Shown one piece after another: positions 53,908 to 60,077 of a DNA stretch of 64,000 nt (positions within the stretch are counted from its first letter, which is position 1; each line of letters starts with the position of its first letter). Under the pieces are notes generated by a model. That model saw only the letters and a program-made list of their open reading frames with translations. It was not told the origin of the DNA and did no database searches. The position numbers were made by a program, and so were the translations under genes. Source of the DNA: an uncultured Planctomycetaceae bacterium (GTDB taxonomy: Bacteria > Planctomycetota > Planctomycetia > Planctomycetales > Planctomycetaceae); NCBI GenBank assembly GCA_937916515.1, contig CALFSX010000010.1, positions 1 through 64,000 of the forward strand, written 5' to 3'.

Positions 53908-54951
53908 TTATGGATTAATAATGGCCGATACCTTTGCAGCCGCCTCCAACTGCGCTCGCTCAATAACATCAGCCACATTCACCTTCAGGAACCCCTGCCG
54001 CTTGCTTTCGTCTGCTGCTTCCATGAAAGCATAGATGTCTATCGTCTCCGCGGAACTGACGGGCGCTACTCCAGAATTGAAGAACTTCACGATTTCCACA
54101 ACCAACGGAGCGTAACCATCGTATGCCCCAACCGCCGTGGCACCCTTTGCCCCAAACGCGGTCCCACCATACCCAGCCTTACCAGCTCGAAGGCCGCGAA
54201 ACGTTCCAATCCGCCCTTCACTCCAGACTCCGGTAACCTGTTCGAAGTCTTTCGTCTGAGTCCGCACAACGGTCTCCACGCCCGGCCCCATCACGGTAAA
54301 CAGGCTTTCAACGCCGTGAATACCGTACCAAAACAGATCCGGATGAGTCGCCTCAAGCGAACACGGTGAATACGTGTCGCAGCCGGTCACATCACCAATT
54401 GAGCCGTTTCTCACGGCCAGAGTGCTCGTACCGAACCGCAGCGACGAAGAGGAAAATACGGGCGTCCTGTAGTGTTCTGCCAGCTTAAAAATCGCGATGC
54501 AATCCGCCAATGAACCAGCGATCGGCTTGTCGATAAAACATGGTTTGCCAGCCTTCAGCACAGGAAGAATCTGCTGCAAGTGAGGCCTGCCATCGTTGGT
54601 CTCCAGCAATACTGCGTCAACCTGTTGAATCATGGCATCCAGGTCGTCCACCACTTCGACGCCCATTTTTCTGATGTCTTCCGTATACTTCGGAACCCGA
54701 GAAACGCTGCTTTCAATGTCCGGCGACCCTTTGGGATACACCATCACAACTTTACAACCGGGAATATACTTGGGATCGTCAGCGTTGTTCAGAATCTTTG
54801 TGAAGGCCAGGCAATGAGATGTGTCGAGCCCAATCATGCCAATTCGCAATGCGGGCTTTTCATCGGCATCAACCGAAGCAGCAATTCCCACCAAGGCAAT
54901 CAGCAGTGCCATGCAGCAAAGTAGTGTGCGACCTGTCAGTGTGCGTTTCAT
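53908..54951 (-). CDS. Exported Gfo/Idh/MocA-family oxidoreductase
   Basis: The 347-residue protein has a Sec-type signal ('LLCCMALLIALVGIAASVDA') followed by a Rossmann domain ('RIGMIGLDTSH'), 'VDAVLLETNDGRPH' and the family motif 'GKPCFIDKPIAGS'. Gfo/Idh enzymes oxidise or reduce sugars with NAD(P); export of such an enzyme is a planctomycete oddity. The nucleotide motif is 'GLDTSH' rather than GxGxxG, so cofactor binding is uncertain. The ATG overlaps the preceding small-protein stop by four bases. Confidence 0.83.
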   Translation of the reverse strand: MKRTLTGRTLLCCMALLIALVGIAASVDADEKPALRIGMIGLDTSHCLAFTKILNNADDPKYIPGCKVVMVYPKGSPDIESSVSRVPKYTEDIRKMGVEVVDDLDAMIQQVDAVLLETNDGRPHLQQILPVLKAGKPCFIDKPIAGSLADCIAIFKLAEHYRTPVFSSSSLRFGTSTLAVRNGSIGDVTGCDTYSPCSLEATHPDLFWYGIHGVESLFTVMGPGVETVVRTQTKDFEQVTGVWSEGRIGTFRGLRAGKAGYGGTAFGAKGATAVGAYDGYAPLVVEIVKFFNSGVAPVSSAETIDIYAFMEAADESKRQGFLKVNVADVIERAQLEAAAKVSAIINP

Positions 54952-55301
54952 GAATTCGTTTCCGAATGAGGATTAAGTTCTTCAATGCGTTGCCACATTC
55001 TATTCTCTTCAAGTCGCTTACGTCGACACACTGCATAATCTCGCGTGACGACCACAGAAACAAGCCACACGCCTAAAAGCAGCACAATCGCCATCAAAAT
55101 CCTATGCCCAAATCTATCCAGTAACAGGGCAATGAGACCGAACGATGGACCAATAACGAATCCCAACAGTACCCCCGTCTGCAACAGTTCTACCCAATCT
55201 GCCCACGTCAACGCAGCGGACGTAGCAAACTCCGAGTCAGCCCCAGCACCGGCCGGGGGCAGATAGGAATTCGCGTCATCATCATCATTGTTCTTCGTCA
55301 T
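54948..55301 (-). CDS. Small two-helix membrane protein with NSYLPP motif
   Basis: 117 residues beginning 'MTKNNDDDDANSYLPPAG', followed by two membrane helices ('LLGFVIGPSFGLIALLL', 'ILMAIVLLLGVWLVSVVV') and a charged C-terminal tail. The N-terminal (N/D)xYxxP element recurs in neighbours. The start is ATG 55301, overlapping the Lgt-like gene by 17 bases; the track's 55361 is not supported. Function unknown. Confidence 0.75.
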   Translation of the reverse strand: MTKNNDDDDANSYLPPAGAGADSEFATSAALTWADWVELLQTGVLLGFVIGPSFGLIALLLDRFGHRILMAIVLLLGVWLVSVVVTRDYAVCRRKRLEENRMWQRIEELNPHSETNS

Positions 55302-56010
55302 TAACTTCACCACGAAGCCTTGCTGCGTCCATACGCCAAAGCCAGACAAACACTGCGACAAGCAATAGTGCAGACCACTGATAAGCTGTCAGCCCACCCA
55401 CAACCTGAGCTTCCGGACGAATGAACTCGGTGAGAAATCGGTATCCGAAGTACGAGACAAAATACAACTTGATCAGCTGGCCTCGAAACAACCTGCGGCG
55501 AATCATCCACGCCGCGATAAACGCCGCGGACAGGTGGAAAGCTGATTCATAAAGCTGAGTCGGGTGCCGCCCAAGATCATCGATCGCGGGAAATATAACC
55601 GCCCAGGGAAGTTTCGTATGAGTTCCATAGCAACAGCCTCCGCAAAAACACGCCAATCGCCCGATCGCAATCGACACCGCAACCGGTACAACAAACGTGT
55701 CACCCGTTTTTGCAGTCACGCCAATGCTGTGCTTGGCCCACTCAACACCCGCGTATCCGCCGACCATTCCAAACAGAATCGTTTTGCCGCTGGTCAGAAT
55801 GCCTTCGGAACCACCAAATCCCGGCAAGCCCGGAATTAAAAACGGAATTTTTGCGGCAAGAAAGGCGCCAGTGAAGGCAGCCATGCCGATCCAGATTTTG
55901 CCGAACCGATCAATTGGTAACGTCGACTTATAGTGTCGACTTAAAGCAAATCCGGTACCCACGGCCAGCATCATTACGAACGGATACAACTGTGGAAATT
56001 GTCCACCCAT
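55285..56010 (-). CDS. Lgt-like (prolipoprotein diacylglyceryl transferase family) membrane protein
   Basis: The 241-residue protein has seven or so membrane helices and the Lgt-fold landmarks 'GRLACFCGGCCYG' and 'HPTQLYE'. In canonical Lgt the first is GRxGNFxNxE; here Asn and Glu are replaced by Cys-rich sequence, so it is a paralogue and may use another acceptor or lipid. The ATG at 56010 shares one base with the radical-SAM stop (TGATG), indicating translational coupling. The track's GTG start at 56016 is less likely. Confidence 0.82.
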   Translation of the reverse strand: MGGQFPQLYPFVMMLAVGTGFALSRHYKSTLPIDRFGKIWIGMAAFTGAFLAAKIPFLIPGLPGFGGSEGILTSGKTILFGMVGGYAGVEWAKHSIGVTAKTGDTFVVPVAVSIAIGRLACFCGGCCYGTHTKLPWAVIFPAIDDLGRHPTQLYESAFHLSAAFIAAWMIRRRLFRGQLIKLYFVSYFGYRFLTEFIRPEAQVVGGLTAYQWSALLLVAVFVWLWRMDAARLRGEVNDEEQ

Positions 56011-57476
56011 CAGCACTTCACCAAATTGGCGTTCGCCAGAGGCGGAAGTGGAACGTGTCCGTCGCGATACAAAACGTTATAAGCCGAAAACGGAATCAGA
56101 TGTCCTGTTGGCAGCACAAAATGCACACACGACTGCATCAATTGACGAATGTCGAAGTTCCACGCATCCATGAATGAAGTCGTTGTAATGCGAAACATGT
56201 CAGACGGATTCAGCTGTTGAGTCATCGTCTTCAGAAAAAACTGCTGAGCCAAAGCCAGTTCGTCTGGCAAGAGGTTCTCGCCCAAACTGACGGGAGTGAC
56301 TGCGTTCACTCCTGAGCCCGCTTCTGTTTCGCAACCTCCCAAACCGCAGGGCTGGCGAGCCAGGTAGGCGGCAATCAGTTCCTGAGCTCGCTGACGATTG
56401 AAGGTGATTCGCCCGGACAGCAGGTCCAGATGATTCTGCAGATCCAGAAATCTGGCGAGCGGTAGAGCTCGATCGCCCGCGCGGACTCCATACGCCAGAG
56501 TGTGAGCATTCGGATGAGCACACGGCAATGGCGAGAAATCCGTTTCCTTCCAAACGCCGCTTGTTTGCGCAGCCACGCGTTGGATGATATCGGGAAACGT
56601 AATCCGTTGTTCAAGCTGTTCCGGCATCACAAACCGACCGGAATAGGTCGCAGGCTGAAAACTGACTCCCGTCACCCACGGACGCTGCATCCCAAAAGTC
56701 ACGATTTCTCCCAGCTGATATTCGTTCACACCCGGCTGAACCGTGCACACCAGAATCGTATTCAGCCCGACTTCACCAAGCTGCTCGACGGCTTTCAGCT
56801 TTGTTTCCAGCAGCGACTCGCCTCGCAGCACTTCATAGCCATCGTCGCTGAAGCCGTCGAACTGCAGGTAGATTTCGGTGCGGTGTTTTTGTTCGGCGAC
56901 CTGTTCCAGAAATCGCCGATCTTTTGCCAGGCGAACACCATTGGTGTTGATCATCACGATGTCGATCGGCTGGTCACACGCGTACTTATGAATCCGCAGA
57001 AACTCTGGATGAATAGTGGGTTCACCGCCAGAAAGCTGCAGAATTTCAGGCTGGCCTTCCACTTCCACCAGACGATCAATGGCCGCCCTGCACTGCTCAA
57101 AAGTTAAGTGTTTGCCGCCGGGACCGCTGACAGCAAAACACATCGGGCATTCCAGATTGCAGCCAGCCGTAATTTCCAGCAAGCCGATGCATGTGTGCTG
57201 TTCATGTTCGGAACACAACCCGCAATCATAGGGACAGCCCTGCTTCACTTCCGCCCCATAACTAAACGGAACTTTACCGGGCAAGCTGTAACTGTTGCGA
57301 TCAAACCAGCGTACGTCGCTGCAAACGAAGTCTTCGCGTGCCCCGTGAACTTCACACGTTTTGCGGAAGTAGACGCGTCCATCCCGCGAAACAATCTTCG
57401 CCGGCACCACCTTCAGACAGTCAGGGCACAAGCTCTGAGTCGTCCCCAGAAACGTGTAGTCACGAAAAACAGTCAT
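56010..57476 (-). CDS. Radical SAM enzyme of the MJ0619/Tes-like (COG1964) group
   Basis: The 488-residue protein has an N-terminal Cys-rich part (C17, C20, C41, C52, then 'GCPYDCGLCSEHEQHTC'), followed by the radical SAM motif 'CNLECPMC' (C106, C110, C113) and 'LQLSGGEPTIHPEF'. This order (extra Fe-S ligands, then 'HTC...EITAGCNLECPMCF') matches enzymes such as methanopterin C-methylase MJ0619 and tetraether synthase Tes, which form C-C bonds. A second Cys group 'CGLGGCE' lies near residue 375. It overlaps small membrane protein and Lgt-like genes. A lipid substrate is inference. Confidence 0.85.
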   Translation of the reverse strand: MTVFRDYTFLGTTQSLCPDCLKVVPAKIVSRDGRVYFRKTCEVHGAREDFVCSDVRWFDRNSYSLPGKVPFSYGAEVKQGCPYDCGLCSEHEQHTCIGLLEITAGCNLECPMCFAVSGPGGKHLTFEQCRAAIDRLVEVEGQPEILQLSGGEPTIHPEFLRIHKYACDQPIDIVMINTNGVRLAKDRRFLEQVAEQKHRTEIYLQFDGFSDDGYEVLRGESLLETKLKAVEQLGEVGLNTILVCTVQPGVNEYQLGEIVTFGMQRPWVTGVSFQPATYSGRFVMPEQLEQRITFPDIIQRVAAQTSGVWKETDFSPLPCAHPNAHTLAYGVRAGDRALPLARFLDLQNHLDLLSGRITFNRQRAQELIAAYLARQPCGLGGCETEAGSGVNAVTPVSLGENLLPDELALAQQFFLKTMTQQLNPSDMFRITTTSFMDAWNFDIRQLMQSCVHFVLPTGHLIPFSAYNVLYRDGHVPLPPLANANLVKC

Positions 57477-57841
57477 GTGCGTGAGCCTTGTTCGTCCCGT
57501 TCAGAATCATCCAAGGAGCTTGCCGTATCAGAGGCTGAAACTTTCGGAATGTACGTTCGGAAGATTAAGCGGACCACCACGACAGCCGCAATGATTCCTA
57601 CGGCAAATGCCAAAATAAACACGTAGCCCGGATCACTAATCTGCACAACGGACGCACCGGCCAATCCCACCCCGAAGCAAGTAAACACAAAAGCAATCAA
57701 ACCGCCGATGCACGCCATCACAGCGACAACAAACAGTGTAATCGGCCCGGGCGGCTTCGAAGACGTAACGTTCACAACAGTACGTTCTTCCTGTTGACTG
57801 CCCGTTACCCGATAGGGATTGTTCGACGAAGAATCTGTCAT
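57473..57841 (-). CDS. Small membrane protein with NPY motif
   Basis: 122 residues: 'MTDSSSNNPYRVTGS' at the N-terminus, two membrane helices ('LFVVAVMACIGGLIAFVFTCFG' and 'VFILAFAVGIIAAVVVVRLIF') and an acidic tail. Stop overlaps the radical-SAM ATG by four bases (ATGA). Function unknown; probably part of the same membrane-associated complex. Confidence 0.75.
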   Translation of the reverse strand: MTDSSSNNPYRVTGSQQEERTVVNVTSSKPPGPITLFVVAVMACIGGLIAFVFTCFGVGLAGASVVQISDPGYVFILAFAVGIIAAVVVVRLIFRTYIPKVSASDTASSLDDSERDEQGSRT

Positions 57842-58140
57842 TCAACACCGTCCGTTTCTTCTTTTCGCCAACGCCCAGTGCCGATTCTCCGCTTCACTGA
57901 TCTTGCCACAAACACGCCAATCGGGATTGGCAGAACAAGACACGCCAACTGCACAACGACAGCCATTCCTCTGGGGCTTTGCTTTGCCGTAGAGCTCAGT
58001 CCAGCGCAAGTCGCAGAAAATGCGACGAAGCCTGACACGACCGAAACGACGCCATGAAGTGCCACCATTAAACCACTCGGCATTTTGCTCTGGTCAGAAC
58101 CAACTGGGGGTGAATACGGATCTCCTTGATGTTCATCCAT
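57838..58140 (-). CDS. Small membrane protein with DPYSPP motif
   Basis: 100 residues from the ATG at 58140: 'MDEHQGDPYSPPVGS', two membrane helices and a basic C-terminus. The track starts it at 58230 inside the upstream gene; the start at 58140 overlaps that gene by 8 bases. Its last four bases overlap the next start (ATGA). Confidence 0.7.
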   Translation of the reverse strand: MDEHQGDPYSPPVGSDQSKMPSGLMVALHGVVSVVSGFVAFSATCAGLSSTAKQSPRGMAVVVQLACLVLPIPIGVFVARSVKRRIGTGRWRKEETDGVE

Positions 58141-58552
58141 AAACGTCAAGCCCATTTTCTTCACCAGCTGAAACGCTACGAACCTGACATGGCAACGTGT
58201 CACGAGCCGACAGCAAACCAACCACCACACCGACGATTACACTCACGCCAATCGCAACGCTCGAAACCACAGTATAGAACAACTGCGAATTCCAATCCGC
58301 AAACCAAAACTGCAACAGCGATCCAAAAACAACAAGAGCCACTTCCAGGCAAATGAACAACAGCACGCCACCGACCAACATCACGACAGACGCAGCAATC
58401 GGTGCCACCATCGCAAACACAATGCTGGCCTTCAACAAACCAGCAAACGTGTAGACAAGCTGCACTTCATCCAAAGGATCAATCGCGCGAGGGGCAGTGT
58501 AGGGATCGCGTCCTGAATTCGGGTGGTCAAAATCGCGTGATTCATGGTTCAT
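58133..58552 (-). CDS. Small membrane protein with DPYTAP motif
   Basis: 139 residues with N-terminal 'SGRDPYTAPRAID' and three hydrophobic segments ('SIVFAMVAPIAASVVMLVGGVLLFI', 'LEVALVVFGSLLQFWF', 'VVSSVAIGVSVIVGVVVGLL'). First of the fully coupled block of small proteins; 76 bases downstream of the MFS gene. Family unknown. Confidence 0.7.
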   Translation of the reverse strand: MNHESRDFDHPNSGRDPYTAPRAIDPLDEVQLVYTFAGLLKASIVFAMVAPIAASVVMLVGGVLLFICLEVALVVFGSLLQFWFADWNSQLFYTVVSSVAIGVSVIVGVVVGLLSARDTLPCQVRSVSAGEENGLDVYG

Positions 58553-58628
58553 AGGAATTCACCAAACTCACGTGCTGAAGCAGGCATGCGACCACAGACC
58601 AACCCGGCAGTGATCCTTAAAACACAAC

Positions 58629-60077
58629 TTACTCCGGCAATTCTTCCCCCTGAGTTTCCTTCGCCAGCAACGTCACAACCACACCGACTCCAAACAGCGG
58701 AATCATGTACGACGAAGACATACTCGGGGTCCACTTCAACAGCCCCGATGCCAAAATCGCCGCCGCTGAACCAATCCGACCTGCGTTAAAACAAAAGCCA
58801 GTTCCGGTGCCACGCAAGCGAGTCGGAAACAATTCAGGAAAGTACACAGCATAACCCGCATGCATGCCTAACGTTAGAAACCCAAACACGGGCAGAAACA
58901 GGCACAGAGTCAGTCGCGAGTAATCTCCGGGAGCAAGCACATGAAACAACAGGATGGCCGAAACAAGGCCGCCAAGGTGATAAAACACAAACGCCCCCTT
59001 GCGACCGATCACATTGGAAATCGATCCAAACAGCACCAGCCCGAATCCTCCACCCAGCACCATCGTGAGGAACATGCCAATCATTTCCTCCTTCTTAATG
59101 TCGTCCTTCCCAGCCTTCAACGCCGAAACTCGTTGAGCCTTCTGTTCATCAGTGGGCGACTTCCAATCAACATCTGCCAAACCAGCCGTCTGCAGCACCT
59201 GCTGTTCGGCTCGACGCTTCAGAGTGTCCTTGCCGAAAATATGGCACCCCCAGAACGTTGTCAGGCCAATCGTTGCCAGAGAAACGCCAACGATCGTGTT
59301 TCTCATGAAGGCTGGCGCAAACAAACTGCTTAGCGAACCGGTCTTCTGAGTCGCATCAGTTTTTTCACGCTCACGCGCCTGAACCCATTGTTCAGGTTCT
59401 CGCAGTTTCCAGCGGATAAACACCGTCAACAAGGCTGGCACAACGCCGATCATGAAGCCAAGTCGCCAGGTATTGTCTCCCATCACCTGTTTGCTGATCA
59501 CAAAGTAACCAACGGCGACGGCCATCAATGTCCCAAACACACTGGACGCATGAAAGATAGATCCCATCACCGGACGAGACCGCTTGGGCATCACTTCGGC
59601 CACCATCGCACTGGCCACCGCCCATTCTCCACCAACTCCCATCGCCACAAAAAACCGCAGCACCACCATCTGCCAAGGAGCATTCGCGAAAGCCGTAATG
59701 CATGTGAAGACAGAATAAAACAGGATCGTATAGATCATGGTCTTGGACCGGCCAATGCGGTCGCTCAACATGCCGAACAGGATTCCGCCGAAGGCTCCTC
59801 CCAGCAGGAACGAGGCCAACGCGTAACTGTTCCACGACGAAATCACTTTCTGAGTCGCCTCGTCGATATTCGATGAACTCGTGCCCAACAACTGAGGCAT
59901 CGCGTCGTTCATACTGGCAACAAAGATTTGGCCTTCGAACACATCGAATACCCAACCCAGCGATGCAATCAACAGCACCAGCCACTGGTAGTTGGAAATC
60001 CCTTGATACCAGGTAAGTGTGGATTCAGCGGTCTTCTGCAAGTCGGCTGGCGACTTGTATGGCGATTCATCACTCAT
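58629..60077 (-). CDS. MFS transporter
   Basis: The 482-residue protein begins 'MSDESPYKSPADL', the same short motif as the small neighbours, then has 12 predicted helices. 'GMLSDRIGRSKTM' is the MFS signature after helix 2, and 'VMPKRSRPVMGSIFHASS' is similar to sugar/organic-acid transporters (SLC2/SLC22 and SV2-like). A charged insertion of about 60 residues lies between helices 6 and 7. The ATG at 60077 is chosen over the track's 60095. Substrate unknown; it heads the operon. Confidence 0.85.
   Translation of the reverse strand: MSDESPYKSPADLQKTAESTLTWYQGISNYQWLVLLIASLGWVFDVFEGQIFVASMNDAMPQLLGTSSSNIDEATQKVISSWNSYALASFLLGGAFGGILFGMLSDRIGRSKTMIYTILFYSVFTCITAFANAPWQMVVLRFFVAMGVGGEWAVASAMVAEVMPKRSRPVMGSIFHASSVFGTLMAVAVGYFVISKQVMGDNTWRLGFMIGVVPALLTVFIRWKLREPEQWVQAREREKTDATQKTGSLSSLFAPAFMRNTIVGVSLATIGLTTFWGCHIFGKDTLKRRAEQQVLQTAGLADVDWKSPTDEQKAQRVSALKAGKDDIKKEEMIGMFLTMVLGGGFGLVLFGSISNVIGRKGAFVFYHLGGLVSAILLFHVLAPGDYSRLTLCLFLPVFGFLTLGMHAGYAVYFPELFPTRLRGTGTGFCFNAGRIGSAAAILASGLLKWTPSMSSSYMIPLFGVGVVVTLLAKETQGEELPE

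Follow-up and report, generated by a model that had tools for sequence, protein, structure and literature searches.

NPYxxP, a rare N-terminal peptide shared by unrelated bacterial membrane proteins and a candidate docking tag

Short homology regions that recur across unrelated proteins, such as the PEP-CTERM, GlyGly-CTERM and YSIRK tags, sit on exported proteins and are usually processed, and CTERM/LPXTG-type signals lie at the C-terminus of exported proteins. In eukaryotes, NPxY and YxxPhi motifs place a tyrosine-containing peptide in the tails of unrelated membrane proteins, and GYF domains bind proline motifs. For polytopic bacterial proteins, we are not aware of any cytoplasmic tag in wide use. 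Here we follow up a first-pass annotation of 64,000 nucleotides from an uncultured Planctomycetaceae bacterium (the window; contig CALFSX010000010.1, positions 1 to 64,000), which had noticed that five membrane proteins of one operon begin with similar peptides (ESPYKSP, DPYTAP, DPYSPP, NNPYRVT and NSYLPP) and had proposed that these form a common docking or sorting tag.

The shared peptide, NPYxxP, differs from the PEP-CTERM, GlyGly-CTERM and YSIRK tags in lying on a cytoplasmic N-terminal tail, in polytopic proteins, and in showing no sign of being processed, and from the CTERM/LPXTG-type signals in being N-terminal in all examples. It resembles the eukaryotic motifs in principle, but its order is N-P-Y (by construction of our set), the last proline is required, no adaptor is known and the organisms are other ones. 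Like the ligands of GYF and GYF_2 domains (PPG-hydrophobic, CD2BP2/SMY2-type) it is a short linear motif that contains proline and lies in a flexible tail, and GYF_2 proteins co-occur with NPYxxP and carry it in cis in several genomes; unlike those ligands, it lacks a PPG core, has an invariant tyrosine and is used in genomes without detectable GYF_2. The gliding-motility protein GltJ, a membrane protein whose cytosolic modules precede its membrane part, resembles architectures in which a GYF_2 domain or zinc ribbon is followed by NPYxxP and a transmembrane (TM) segment, whereas the tagged proteins are mainly small orphans and transporters. NPYxxP shows these attributes of a short linear motif: it is short, lies in a disordered segment, occurs in unrelated proteins, is gained convergently and is conserved above its surroundings. 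We found no mention of NPYxxP, NPYxSP, NPYAAP, NPYAPP or NPYQPP in the literature searched, and broader searches returned nothing relevant. Short linear motifs and sorting tags are familiar as kinds of signal; a bacterial cytoplasmic version spread over unrelated polytopic folds in several phyla seems to be undescribed.

Judged from sequence, the motif is real but rare. We scored the strict form [ND]PYxxP in the window's own genome (8.33 Mb, 343 contigs), taking the first 30 residues as N-terminal and the reversed pattern and tail shuffles as controls. The 53 DNA sites equalled the reversed control, so there was no overall excess. With an ATG within ~35 nucleotides upstream, however, 24 motif matches stood against 9 for the reversed pattern, and inspection of each site placed ~12 in the first 30 residues ahead of a TM segment versus 13 in gene interiors (binomial p ~1e-7), the latter nearly all in genes for soluble proteins; the remaining matches were off-frame or non-coding. 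The genome-wide search for enrichment in membrane proteins that the first-pass annotation had called for thus gave a positive answer: ~12 N-terminal sites on polytopic proteins were observed, against ~0.46 expected genome-wide from shuffled tails (Poisson p ~1e-13). A chance origin of the motif is ruled out by the reversed-pattern controls and shuffles. No motif lay in the last 46 residues of 105 polytopic proteins, all examples being on N-tails. Our first sample from the own genome had been picked around motif sites and therefore overstated the frequency there. In an unbiased 800 kb from a second genome of the genus, one of 73 polytopic proteins (an MFS transporter) had a strict match, where 0.018 were expected, and no interior motif sites were found in the proteins of that polytopic sample. 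Extrapolation suggests ten to twenty tagged proteins per genome.

Alignment of 75 tagged proteins gave the consensus [DE]NPY[AQESR][PAS]P[KEA][SA], mostly within the first 10 residues, in which the acidic residue before the asparagine is partly imposed by the M-E-N search pattern. That pattern, M-E-N-P-Y-x-[AP]-P, matched at least 80 loci in a collection of 84,980 genomes, and a TM segment follows soon after the motif in at least 29 of these; the matches listed come from Planctomycetota, Verrucomicrobiota, Pseudomonas, Pseudoxanthomonas, Hahella, Neisseriaceae, Thiomargarita and others. A Neisseriaceae genome of 2.1 Mb (G097) has nine tagged proteins. Such starts had been noted as occurring in many planctomycete membrane proteins, but Verrucomicrobiota and gamma- and betaproteobacteria use the motif as much or more, so it is not planctomycete-specific. 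In the window's family (61 genomes), matches to the anchored pattern clearly exceeded those of its control, but many genomes had none. Planctomycetota-wide the excess was just modest, and a recurrent coding false positive (MYQ.ITADNPYQTP, in the interior of a soluble protein) contributes there, which together indicate a patchy distribution across Planctomycetota. One Neisseriaceae MFS protein (L344:993-2315, minus strand) has an N-tail with MNSDKENPYDPPKS and is apparently the member of the tagged set that matches the AmpG muropeptide transporter (TIGR00901, E 9e-141).

The proteins behind these tails are diverse. Once the motif and the tail upstream of it were masked, the 75 examples fell into 62 sequence clusters, and the Pfam and NCBIfam matches of 67 scanned proteins included MFS, Nramp, RDD, nucleoside symporter, DUF805, DUF2189, DUF4234 and Rce1-like families, among others; most of the 67 match no family, and no model was common to them. 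No relatives of the NNPYRVT protein were found in viral contigs. Common descent, in which the tagged proteins would be one family and the motif its conserved start, does hold for part of the operon, where the DPYSPP and NNPYRVT proteins are diverged paralogs (E 8e-5) with orthologs in two further genomes (G219 and G184). Because of this paralogy the five tagged proteins represent ~four independent bodies, and their description as otherwise unlike was too strong. For the set as a whole, the 62 clusters, the many unrelated folds and the untagged close homologs of a nucleoside permease leave common descent hardly credible; a single family with a common start is true for just two to three operon genes and refuted beyond them.

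Conservation is concentrated on the peptide. The orthologs L021 and L327 both start MSNPYASP, and between them the seven motif codons show 5 synonymous and 0 nonsynonymous changes, compared with 1 synonymous and 10 nonsynonymous in the next 12 codons. In orthologs from Planctomycetota and Verrucomicrobiota (~22% identity), N, P, Y and P are invariant while the remaining tail is barely alignable. In the small-protein family of the operon, the invariant residues are limited to M1, P9, Y10, F51, C55 and G57; in the second congeneric genome, the syntenic operon encodes three small proteins that carry ENPYLPP, QNPYRPP and QNPYESP, and a family member in another genus has ENPYQPP. These alignments indicate that the peptide is under selection and more conserved than its surroundings. 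They also bear on whether the motif might instead be an early proline-dependent translational pause that aids membrane targeting. Pro-Pro pairs are indeed frequent (NPYxPP) and come early in the gene, but it is the amino acids that are selected while the codons drift, N-P-Y is conserved as strongly as the prolines, versions without a Pro-Pro pair (NPYxAP) are common, and the motif also occurs after an N-terminal domain; we regard a pause as very improbable. Homologs of the nucleoside permease lack the motif even at 69% identity to the tagged member, which suggests that a transporter already in place can gain or lose it. For a given fold (nucleoside permease, MFS) the motif is, by these comparisons, dispensable.

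The sequences themselves show that the motif is enriched, where it sits, that the bodies behind it are unrelated, that selection acts on it and that single members gain or lose it; a peptide that selection preserves in an otherwise changing tail is probably a docking tag. On balance we lean towards NPYxxP being a portable short linear motif, carried on a disordered cytoplasmic tail that leads into the first TM helix, which unrelated inner-membrane proteins would acquire independently. A common cytosolic or membrane-associated partner would read it in trans, and the tagged proteins would thereby be recruited to one place, complex or fate; partner binding and this outcome are what we infer. The earlier proposal of a docking or sorting tag is thus partly supported: it is upheld for N-terminal enrichment, unrelated bodies, a cytoplasmic side in keeping with the families involved, purifying selection and gain and loss, whereas docking itself and the partner stay putative. 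Several points weigh against our reading. The motif is on only ~1-1.5% of polytopic proteins in the unbiased sample from the second genome of the genus, the MFS ortholog in a syntenic operon of the same genus (G219, L332) has no PY in its tail, the codon test is one ortholog pair, and TM calls rest on hydropathy alone and gene calls on a home-made script. A bolder extension, which we advance only tentatively, is a cross-phylum tail-sorting code in which a dedicated cytosolic reader gathers dozens of unrelated tagged proteins into a membrane domain; if true, it would be a bacterial counterpart of eukaryotic cytoplasmic-tail sorting. How bacteria choose the destination of an inner-membrane protein is poorly understood, and a seven-residue, easily mutated peptide would offer a handle. 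If transporters (MFS, NRAMP) and dozens of small membrane proteins without annotation share one tag, it would also help to sort many orphans by a shared fate.

The N-termini of MFS, NRAMP and RDD proteins are cytoplasmic, and the prediction that the tagged tails lie on the cytoplasmic side agrees with the occurrence of these families in the set. A positive-inside count gave N-in for 55 of the 75 tails; since MFS and NRAMP proteins are among the exceptions, the count itself errs. For the NNPYRVT protein, AlphaFold2 assigned the tail a pLDDT of ~50 and no secondary structure before residue 33. Both the cytoplasmic side and the disorder of the tail are therefore supported, if crudely. The very N-terminus is not required, as the motif stands between a GYF_2 domain and TM1 in seven proteins ([NS]PYxxP) and after a zinc ribbon in one. 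A turnover or biogenesis signal for membrane proteins (an FtsH- or Clp-type degron, or an insertion helper) would suit the cytoplasmic, near-N-terminal position and the many small orphan membrane proteins. Such a signal fits less well with the internal motifs that follow GYF_2 or zinc-ribbon domains and with the fact that most membrane proteins have no motif, and proline-rich stretches are not known to serve as FtsH signals; we consider it improbable.

A more specific form of our preferred explanation, a portable tag read in trans, names the reader. GYF_2 domains (DUF4339), bacterial relatives of the GYF domains, would, in SPFH-GYF_2 and membrane GYF_2 proteins, bind NPYxxP tails and gather the tagged proteins into a membrane scaffold, a possibility we rate as unlikely. 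GYF_2 was present in 13 of 20 motif genomes but in 2 of 12 control genomes (Fisher p 0.012, phylogeny not corrected for), and in 61 of 61 sampled genomes of the window's family. The seven membrane GYF_2 proteins have [NS]PYxxP between domain and TM1, where others have PPPLP-type linkers, and SPFH-GYF_2 proteins have polyproline on both sides of the domain. The bacterial GYF_2 profile matches the GYF domains of human GIGYF1/2 and PDB 7z3c, a gliding-motility protein that PDB lists as Myxococcus AgmX/GltJ. Against this stand the genomes without a GYF_2 match at E<=0.001 (Neisseriaceae G097 with its nine tagged proteins, G083, G079 and the planctomycete G085) and the finding that GYF_2 number does not visibly track motif number within the family (61 genomes). 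In an AlphaFold2 model of a natural GYF_2-NPYAAP chain (L200), the motif block reached a pLDDT of 62 versus 52-59 for the other parts of the linker, with no confident cis docking, and the cis cases could simply reflect that the motif belongs to TM1-proximal tails, whichever domain precedes. The tagged genomes that lack GYF_2 and the absence of a visible dose relation weaken GYF_2 as sole reader. Proline-motif readers of the GYF_2 type, such as the SPFH protein with a GYF_2 domain at its C-terminus that occurs in planctomycetes of the window's family, are still the leading candidate partner, though not an established one; the NPYxxP peptide would be a simple bait for a reader, with bacterial GYF_2 domains the first candidate.

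Three further observations concern GYF_2 proteins. Soluble proteins, SPFH-type or similar, whose C-terminal GYF_2 domain lies between polyproline stretches (PPPPPP) occur in Planctomycetota and other phyla (L061, L191, L194, L198, L199, L225, L226, L231). Another match of the bacterial GYF_2 profile is TIC56, a component of the chloroplast protein import complex (PDB 8z9y and 7vcf; E 3e-8). In the own genome, the gene for a zinc-ribbon membrane protein with MLNSPYNPP (L070:75-611, minus strand) is divergent from the adjoining gene for a double-GYF_2 protein.

The operon in the window comprises the following features, listed with their peptides.

58629..60077, minus strand: MFS metabolite:H+ symporter gene, 482 amino acids (Pfam Sugar_tr 7e-33, MFS_1 3e-29)
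60048..60068, minus strand: ESPYKSP, residues 4-10 of the MFS transporter; strict motif (SPYKSP), from sequence
58133..58552, minus strand: orphan of 139 amino acids and 3 TM segments, carrying DPYTAP
58490..58507, minus strand: DPYTAP, residues 16-21 of the 139-residue protein; strict motif
57838..58140, minus strand: protein of 100 amino acids and 2 TM segments, carrying DPYSPP; paralog of the next gene (NNPYRVT protein)
58105..58122, minus strand: DPYSPP, residues 7-12 counted from the ATG at 58140; strict motif
57473..57841, minus strand: protein of 122 amino acids and 2 TM segments, carrying NNPYRVT
57803..57823, minus strand: NNPYRVT, residues 7-13 of the 122-residue protein; partial motif, last proline replaced
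56010..57476, minus strand: radical SAM enzyme with an HMPTM zinc ribbon, tetraether-synthase-like; same operon, no motif
55285..56010, minus strand: Lgt-like membrane protein (PF01790, 9e-28); same operon, no motif
54948..55301, minus strand: protein of 117 amino acids and 2 TM segments, carrying NSYLPP; start at 55301
55254..55271, minus strand: NSYLPP, residues 11-16 of the 117-residue protein; degenerate, serine for the first proline

All five peptides are present on the minus strand, each ahead of the first helix predicted by hydropathy, as had been noted; in the MFS transporter that first TM segment is at residue 33. The idea of one motif on all five proteins fared less evenly, as ESPYKSP, DPYTAP and DPYSPP are strict, NNPYRVT is partial and NSYLPP degenerate. 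NNPYRVT aligns with NPYxPP of its orthologs. NSYLPP is, from its sequence, a doubtful member that may have arisen by chance. The gene order on the minus strand is MFS, DPYTAP, DPYSPP, NNPYRVT, radical SAM, Lgt-like, NSYLPP and a Gfo/Idh-type oxidoreductase, and from the DPYTAP gene onward neighbouring genes either abut or share a few bases between stop and start; the DPYSPP gene, for instance, has its ATG at 58140 (MDEHQGDPYSPP), and this start overlaps the stop of the gene before (ATGGATGA). A search of 60 further genomes of the family found no homolog of the 139-residue DPYTAP protein. Where the operon is more distantly related (L315, L318, L319), small membrane proteins adjoin the radical SAM gene, and their N-tails have a zinc ribbon (CxxC...CxxC) in place of NPYxxP.

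The two genes without a motif (the 55285-57476 pair, minus strand) form a subject of their own. The sole strong PDB match of the radical SAM enzyme is archaeal tetraether synthase (7tol, E 1.9e-76), and the radical SAM and Lgt-like genes are adjacent or near each other in most related genera examined. Homologs of Tes have been reported in Planctomycetota (PMC11868695), and the Lgt-like neighbour may offer a lead on membrane-spanning lipids in bacteria.

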